DNA from: Halococcus hamelinensis 100A6
GTDB lineage: Archaea > Halobacteriota > Halobacteria > Halobacteriales > Halococcaceae
Length of the DNA stretch: 44,423 nucleotides
Direction of reading: 5' to 3'
Assembly: GCF_000336675.1 (NCBI RefSeq)
Contig: NZ_AOMB01000042.1
Span: 66,938-111,360, forward strand
The position numbers and the translations under genes are program-made. Under the pieces are notes generated by a model. That model worked only from the letters and a program-made list of their open reading frames with translations, was not told the DNA's origin and made no database searches. This document shows positions 31,575-44,423 of the stretch, piece by piece. Every line of letters starts with the position of its first letter. Positions within the stretch are counted from its first letter, which is position 1.

Positions 31575-31648
31575 TGCTCGGTCGGGGATTTGAACTTCGG
31601 AAGACGGTCGCTCACTACGCTCGCGCTGCGACTTCCGTGCTCAAATCC
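31575..31648 (-). repeat. Partial copy of the tRNA-Glu 3' end in a hairpin, downstream of tRNA-Glu
   Basis: Positions 31575-31595 repeat, base for base, the last 21 nt of tRNA-Glu (31692-31712): discriminator, acceptor 3' strand and part of the T arm. The copy is followed by an inverted partner, GGATTTGA...TCGGAAG against CTTCCG...TCAAATCC (31586-31648), so in the tRNA direction the copy is the 3' strand of a hairpin. The offset between the copies is 117 bp. The linking DNA is rich in CTTCGCTC-like words. Confidence 0.7.
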
Positions 31649-31691
31649 GCCTCCCTGCGCGCTTCGCTCGTCACTTCGTTCCTCGCTGTAG

Positions 31692-31766
31692 TGCTCGGTC
31701 GGGGATTTGAACCCCGGTCTTCGGCTCGAAAGGCCAAAATGATTGGCCGGACTACACCAACCGAGC
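31692..31766 (-). tRNA. tRNA-Glu (UUC)
   Basis: A 75-nt minus-strand cloverleaf: acceptor GCTCGGT/ACCGAGC with discriminator A at 31692, and anticodon loop CTTTCGA (anticodon TTC) on stem TTGGC/GCCGA. The T arm is CGGGG-TTCAAAT-CCCCG. No intron and no encoded CCA. A CCTTAACC box about 33 bp upstream, just beyond the end of the neighbouring dehydrogenase gene, may be its promoter. Confidence 0.95.
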
Positions 31767-43872: not shown

Positions 43873-43941
43873 CGGGCCGGGAGGGATTTGAACCACCTGA
43901 ACTTCGGTCGCTTCGCTCCTTCGTTCCGTCGTTCAAATCCC
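43873..43941 (-). repeat. Partial copy of the tRNA-Lys 3' end in a hairpin, downstream of tRNA-Lys
   Basis: Positions 43873-43894 match, base for base, 43984-44005 within tRNA-Lys, covering the acceptor 3' strand and the T arm, at an offset of 111 bp. GGGATTTGAAC at 43883-43893 has an inverted partner, GTTCAAATCCC, at 43931-43941. The DNA between the copies carries CGCTTCGCTCCTCAC-like words. This is the same design as seen next to tRNA-Glu. Confidence 0.7.
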
Positions 43942-43983
43942 TTTCGTGGCCGCTTCGCTCCTCACGTCCGTTCGTCGCGAAGG

Positions 43984-44057
43984 CGGGCCGGGAGGGATTT
44001 GAACCCCCGACCGTCTGATTAAGAGTCAGATGCTCTCCCTAACTGAGCTACCGGCCC
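43984..44057 (-). tRNA. tRNA-Lys (CUU)
   Basis: A 74-nt minus-strand cloverleaf: acceptor GGGCCGG/CCGGCCC with discriminator G at 43984, D stem GCTC/GAGC, and anticodon stem TCTGA/TCAGA around CTCTTAA (anticodon CTT). The T arm is GGGGG-TTCAAAT-CCCTC. No intron and no encoded CCA. Confidence 0.95.
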
Positions 44058-44423
44058 TGCGATTTCGAGTTACTCCGGCCCGGTGAAATACGTTTTCCTT
44101 CCGACCGGGCCGGCACGGCCGCGGGGCGGTGCGGTCCGCGGCTGCGGTGCGGAGGCGGTCGTGGAAGAAACCTGGCGTCCCGGTGAGCTGTGCTCTCCTG
44201 GCGGATGAAGGGCGAGTGAACGCCGGAGGTGTGAACGAGGGCTTCGGCGGTGCGGTAGCGGTGGCGGTGTTGTGCGGTTGCGGTCGCGGAGAGGTAGTGC
44301 GGTTGCGGTCGCGGAGAGGTAGTGGTTGTACCGCGAGCGAGTGAAACGAGCGAGCGGGCCGACGACTGACTGGAAGGAAGGAGGAGGCTTTTGATCCACA
44401 TTTTGCCAGCGAAGGAGCGAAGC
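44058..44423. other. Non-coding end of window with a tandem repeat
   Basis: No supportable gene; all open frames here are Arg/Pro/Thr-rich compositional artefacts. A 25-bp unit is tandemly doubled at 44273-44322 (TGCGGTTGCGGTC core), next to further GCGGT runs. The last 100 bp hold GAGCGAGTGAAACGAGCGAG-like words resembling those around the tRNA-linked repeats. tRNA-Lys should have its promoter in the first 50 bp. Confidence 0.45.

Follow-up and report, generated by a model that had tools for sequence, protein, structure and literature searches.

Hairpin-bearing repeat units behind haloarchaeal tRNA genes, each bounded by a copy of the tRNA 3' end

A 44,423-nucleotide stretch of the Halococcus hamelinensis 100A6 genome (contig NZ_AOMB01000042.1, positions 66,938 to 111,360; the window below) raises the question of why two of its tRNA genes, tRNA-Lys(CTT) and tRNA-Glu(TTC), are each followed by a copy of their own 3' end, with an inverted piece of the same tRNA between the gene and the copy. 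Repeat units with this layout are general in haloarchaea and occur sporadically in a few archaea of other groups, and the reading that we favor, with modest confidence, is that they are non-autonomous mini-elements with hairpins that become inserted at the 3' ends of tRNAs, probably by site-specific recombination.

Anatomy of the units

Leading away from the tRNA, the unit is organized in the order H1, I, H2, C at both genes (Table 1), where H1 and H2 are hairpin segments, I is an inverted copy of the T-loop core, and C is a direct copy of tRNA positions 53 (where the 5' strand of the T-stem ends) to 73 (the discriminator). At tRNA-Lys the direct repeat (43873-43897 and 43984-44008) spans 25 nt with 96% identity and a start-to-start distance of 111 bp, and its core (43873-43893 versus 43984-44004) is identical at 21 of 21 positions, in agreement with the initial annotation, which had placed a downstream 3'-end copy at that spacing and described the same layout at tRNA-Glu. 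The end of tRNA-Lys is set by Rfam at 43984, as the ARAGORN end at 43982 takes in two trailer bases. What had been described as CTTCGCTC-type filler is not filler, being the complementary strand of structured hairpins, and of the two tRNAs said to lack the copy, tRNA-Val(GAC) does lack it downstream, but the comparison with tRNA-Met falls away, with none in the window by ARAGORN or Rfam.

Table 1. Coordinates of the two units in the window, their host tRNAs, and a palindromic repeat found within copies
Feature	Position	Strand	Basis or remark
tRNA-Lys(CTT) gene, unit host	43984..44057	-	ARAGORN; Rfam RF00005 71 bits; sequence
tRNA-Lys positions 53-73 (T-loop to discriminator)	43984-44004	-	sequence
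Lys unit H1, first hairpin segment, tandem-GA tip CGAACGGACGTGAG	43943..43983	-	sequence, motif statistics
Lys unit I, inverted T-loop core copy AGGGATTTGAAC	43931..43942	-	inverted repeat
Lys unit H2, second hairpin segment; start CGACGG, end AGGTG, F5-like end pair	43894..43930	-	sequence
Lys unit C, exact 21-nt copy of tRNA-Lys 53-73	43873..43893	-	direct repeat
tRNA-Glu(TTC) per ARAGORN	31691..31766	-	discriminator A73 at 31692; tail 53-73 = 31692-31712
Glu unit H1	31649..31691	-	sequence
Glu unit I GGATTTGAGC	31639..31648	-	sequence
Glu unit H2, AGTCGCAG...ACCGTCTTC type	31596..31638	-	sequence
Glu unit C, 21-nt copy of tRNA-Glu 53-73	31575..31595	-	sequence
GGGAGAGCACTGCTCTCCCGAGCCCTCGTTCGCTTCGCTCACGAGGACG-type repeat	L299, L300, L314 (tRNA-Val units); L324 (tRNA-Gln unit)

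The boundaries of the copy are sharp across 138 units, in which the identity of C to the tRNA is 0.92 to 1.0 at each of positions 53 to 73, 0.75 at position 52, below 0.5 before it, 0.54 at position 74, and near background beyond. Each insertion is bounded by this direct repeat and the tRNA is left intact; the 53-73 block could be a target duplication or a recombination product. The inserted H1-I-H2 segment is about 90 bp, is non-coding, and starts right after the discriminator base, with median lengths in the same 138 units of 40 nt for H1 and 41 nt for H2. There is no integrase gene inside the unit, which is too small for any gene, and there are no terminal inverted repeats, as the starts and ends of units differ and their inverted pieces are the tRNA core and the hairpin stems.

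Segment I complements tRNA positions 54 to 62 and is able to pair either with the T-arm of the tRNA or with C. It follows base 57 of its own tRNA (0.93, versus 0.42 for another tRNA), with 213 matched and 15 mismatched cases. This antisense character prompted a by-eye look for a guide RNA of the box C/D or H/ACA kind directed at the T-loop, in which no consistent C/D boxes were seen, and a long terminal repeat-type primer-binding site is ruled out because the complementarity of I is to positions 54 to 64 and not to the tRNA 3' end.

H1 and H2 often end in a tip of the form C-GA-RC-loop-GY-GA-G, in which two tandem G.A mismatches flank a short stem, and the H2 loop is mostly GNA. The tip is found almost exclusively on the tRNA-sense strand (122 to 1 for H1 and 92 to 0 for H2, 214 to 1 in total), and its R/Y pair covaries, with 196 paired cases (A-T, 107; G-C, 89) and 18 others; the G-T cells hold 14 cases and the A-C cells four. 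H1 and H2 are too variable in length for one alignment, so pairing was tested by comparing a unit's own arms with those of other units in place of a covariance model: a perfect 6-bp window is present with the own partner in 24% of H2 and 21% of H1 arms, versus 3.5% and 2%, respectively, with the arms of other units. H2 also carries coupled five-base motifs at its ends (CCCTG/CTCCG, TCACG/ATCGG, TCAGG/CCGTG, GTAGA/GCGTG or GCGTA, and CTACG/GTCGA). RNAalifold on 70 short H2 segments returned little besides the I-C stem, and complementarity between the H1 3' arm and tRNA positions 71 to 73 is in weak excess (27 versus 15 of 213) and is not claimed. GA-tipped hairpins number 356 behind tRNA tails; as a general intergenic motif in 1.5 Mb of haloarchaeal DNA the tip was rejected, being near background outside tRNA tails (374 occurrences versus 281 in the reversed control).

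Distribution, gain, and loss

The genome containing the window is a 3.42-Mb draft with 42 tRNA matches; the downstream DNA of each was scanned, and about 13 are followed by units, some of them degenerate. The hosts are tRNA-Ala(GGC), Arg(TCG), Cys, Glu(CTC), Glu(TTC), Leu(TAG), Lys(CTT), Lys(TTT), Ser(GGA), Ser(CGA), Tyr, and Val(CAC), with two units in tandem at Leu(TAG), and a unit of tRNA-Val(TAC) sits 11.9 kb from its tRNA. A second genome (G050) has a copy behind 14 of 36 tRNAs. These per-tRNA figures are lower bounds, since strict patterns miss units with diverged cores. Among 204 tRNA tails, from loci partly fetched by pattern, 99 have a 21-of-21 match downstream, whereas the best 21-mer match in reversed downstream sequence is 14 of 21 or lower; the tail copies are far beyond chance.

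The pattern GTTCRAATC-N40-70-GRTTYGR-N30-60-GTTCRAATC matches 185 of 194 haloarchaeal genomes, representing 63 of 65 genera, and its reversed control matches none. A stricter pattern is present in 51 of 53 genomes of the order versus none of 242 other genomes of the phylum, and in a collection-wide scan nearly all of 80 loci, among the matches listed, are haloarchaeal. The presence of units behind at least 33 tRNA types and in nearly all genomes of the class strongly supports the proposal of a mechanism operating at the 3' ends of tRNAs, as opposed to one duplication, and matches are plentiful beyond the two loci of the window and related to tRNAs.

Units with the full architecture are also present outside the class, in Woesearchaeota, one Methanomassiliicoccales genome, and the unclassified 'Euryarchaeota Ods02/Ods04'. 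Seven of 236 genomes in the phylum of the Woesearchaeota genome match, some of the matches being plain tRNA neighbors, and in the phylum of the Methanomassiliicoccales genome there is a single weak match among 243. Genomes of Nanoarchaeota/Woesearchaeota type (loci L361, L368, L378, L381, L174, and L181) have the same layout with different hairpins, such as GCTCAGACCGTCCGTAGACGGGCTGAG, so that the system is not confined to haloarchaea.

Comparison of related genomes illustrates how precisely the units come or go. At tRNA-Leu(TAA) in one genus (g10), the site is filled in G051 and G016 and empty in G083 and G102, and the filled and empty sites differ by 112 bp (G051 versus G083) and 107 bp (G016 versus G102), which is one unit plus its copy; the flank after C in the filled site aligns from its first base with the flank that follows the tRNA in the empty site, from base 74. 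G115 and G084 have a different unit at the same point. At tRNA-Gly(TCC) and tRNA-Val(TAC) of this genus the number and order of units and the pairing of H1 with H2 vary among species, and at tRNA-Val(TAC) seven of nine possible combinations of H1 and H2 are seen. The modules are exchanged at I, a core of only about 9 to 13 bp, and in arrays duplicates of H1 are joined to different H2 modules. Of the pairs of H2 modules that are over 92% alike, 24 lie beside different tRNA tails and 26 beside the same tail. In 76 arrays of at least two copies, most of them retrieved by pattern and therefore not an unbiased sample, the tRNA-proximal copy is the better kept in 44 and the worse kept in six (sign test, 1.6e-8), which fits insertion at the tRNA side and decay of older units.

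Insertion and its alternatives

The 53-73 block, the precise filled and empty pairs, and the polar arrays are the signature of an element that enters the 3' end of a tRNA while restoring it. Insertion would occur by recombination with a crossover in the T-loop core (53-61), and the element side would supply or restore tRNA positions 62 to 73, such that the tRNA stays intact. From the pattern of gain and loss we infer an enzyme, and this recombinase would have to act in trans, as the units cannot encode it. Conservation of the hairpins is confined to one strand, so that the substrate or bound form of the enzyme is probably the folded tRNA-sense strand, either as single-stranded DNA (ssDNA), following the logic of integron attC sites, or as RNA; the strand bias is compatible with a DNA hairpin of the top strand and equally with an RNA trailer. 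A bolder form of this proposal, on balance doubtful, is a class-wide archaeal system of folded ssDNA hairpin cassettes that share the T-loop core as their site and are captured and shuffled behind tRNAs by an enzyme, integron-like and with no cassette genes.

Several points weigh against insertion by site-specific recombination. Any empty site is explicable as precise loss through recombination between the two 21-bp repeats, and gain is read from array polarity and the presence of different units at one site, not from polarity on a tree. A classic integrase crossover alone leaves unexplained both the inner core that tracks tRNA base 57 and the H2 families that cross tRNA types. No recombinase or autonomous relative has been identified, integrase candidates not having been searched by phyletic pattern; the Lys unit matches no plasmid or phage, no unit is found in viral contigs by exact pattern, and no vehicle is known. 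A viral vehicle was considered and rejected, as the 38 exact-pattern matches in viral contigs look like the usual tRNA arrays of viruses, most of them with T-loops in direct orientation.

Among the alternatives, a process with no dedicated enzyme is conceivable if rather doubtful: template switching at replication forks and short-repeat recombination, acting at hairpins that have T-loop cores at their base, would create, swap, and multiply the units. Template switching typically acts on hairpins and on direct-inverted-direct layouts, and the units have both; modules exchanged at so short a core and H1 duplicated with different H2 partners are also in keeping with it. Varied endpoints would be expected from it, however, whereas the borders of the copy at 53 and 73 are sharp whatever the tRNA type, and a distribution nearly confined to one archaeal class speaks for a lineage-specific factor.

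It is unlikely that the units act as RNA, forming a structured 3' trailer in which pairing of I with the T-arm or with C could guide how the tRNA folds, how its 3' end is processed, or where the transcript ends. In keeping with such a trailer, hairpin conservation is limited to the tRNA-sense strand and includes covarying pairs, I is complementary to the T-loop and tracks base 57, the coupled H2 end motifs resemble internal loops, and G-T cells exceed A-C cells in the tip pair. Nevertheless, about 29 of the 42 tRNAs in the genome of the window are without units, sister species are without a unit at the same tRNA, and old copies are decayed or interrupted, so that no tRNA seems to need one. The trailer also leaves unexplained the exact copy of positions 66 to 73, which I does not pair with, and a search of Rfam at the Lys unit gives no known structured RNA family, with only the tRNA itself above the cutoff.

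The units are very unlikely to be attachment-site scars of internally deleted proviruses or integrative elements. Such elements do integrate here, as illustrated by an 11.9-kb provirus with a tyrosine recombinase (PF00589) and a terminase (L101:886-12783, contig C5 of the genome of the window), which lies between tRNA-Val(TAC) and the older unit that it displaced. However, its attachment repeat is a duplication of tRNA positions 34 to 73 (41 bp), not 53 to 73, and it thus uses a different crossover; in addition, scars would not be expected to have a size of about 90 bp, hairpin tips, an inverted core, and H2 end motifs in common throughout the class.

Least credible of all is that a homing-type endonuclease of the PDDEXK_5 family (PF11645) drives the units as their autonomous partner by cutting tRNA 3' ends, as its genes, although genuine tRNA neighbors that immediately follow tRNA-Asp, -Pro, -Gly, or -Asn at most of the haloarchaeal loci bearing them (L080-L095), are present in only 20 of 59 genomes versus units in nearly all, and most are not flanked by the 53-73 repeat. 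One such gene in the genome of the window (L003:1501-2120; G000:C43:121317-121940) separates tRNA-Gly(TCC) from a copy of its 3' end 495 bp off, and several of the genes at the other haloarchaeal loci lie between two full tRNA-Asp genes.

Relation to known systems and neighboring repeats

Integron attC sites are imperfect, strand-specific hairpins in which outer boxes pair, coupled motifs stay unpaired, and the tip varies, and they form arrays that grow at one end and exchange modules. The units resemble them in all these features but, unlike integrons, contain no cassette genes and have the tRNA T-loop as outer box; no integron integrase is known here, and none was searched for by phyletic pattern. 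REP and REPIN sequences are short, palindromic, non-autonomous repeats recognized as folded single strands by RAYT (IS200-like) transposases. The units are likewise short, palindromic, and non-autonomous, whereas REPs are extragenic with neither a tRNA target nor a 21-bp target copy. The units are also distinct from a CRISPR array, as structured modules common to many units fill the space between repeats and the arrays lie behind tRNA genes; no search for cas genes was made.

Archaeal integrative elements with tyrosine recombinases target tRNA genes (families such as SNJ2, SSV, and pT26-2), and the T-loop core is one of the tRNA sub-locations used by their integrases (PMC8371274). As with these elements (PMC8371274), the tRNA remains whole, the displaced 3' end forms a direct repeat, and later insertions lie nearer the tRNA; the units differ in being about 90 bp and geneless, in enclosing an inverted core along with two hairpins, and in always duplicating 53-73. 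Haloarchaeal miniature inverted-repeat transposable elements (MITEs), SMRs, and PATEs are, like the units, short, non-coding, mobile repeats (PMC3119063). A-type SMRs, about 110 bp long, strongly prefer certain targets and have no known mover, SMRs make no target copy, and PATEs have palindromes (PMC3119063). The units differ in being tied to tRNA 3' ends, with a 21-bp target copy, no terminal inverted repeats, and an inner core that varies with the tRNA. The repeat system is apparently undescribed: no description of the architecture was found in the open-access literature, and an earlier one is possible in subscription papers, which were mostly outside the search.

The system occupies the 3' side of about one third of the tRNA genes in the two haloarchaeal genomes surveyed. 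It would show how non-coding DNA colonizes tRNA genes harmlessly and would supply a dense, fast-evolving marker for strain comparison, and the units may account for partial-tRNA annotations. A search for the mover is feasible in laboratory haloarchaea.

Other repeats are found at or near the same tRNA ends. A palindromic repeat of about 47 to 99 bp (GGGAGAGCACTGCTCTCCCGAGCCCTCGTTCGCTTCGCTCACGAGGACG and longer forms) is inserted at the T-stem inside several C copies, with a GA-type hairpin opposite in orientation to that of the units; its interruption of C indicates that C can be lost without apparent harm. A short tandem repeat, GTAGTGCGGTTGCGGTCGCGGAGAG, is located just upstream of tRNA-Lys (window positions 44247-44318), and a repeat with the core GGCAAAATGTGGATCAAAAGC, preceded by CACCTTTTGCTGCGCTC, lies at 44386-44423 on the minus strand. 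The GGCAAAATGTGGATCAAAAGC-core repeat is also present directly behind tRNA-Ala(CGC), Leu(GAG), and Met(CAT) elsewhere in this genome (L009, L047, and L024).
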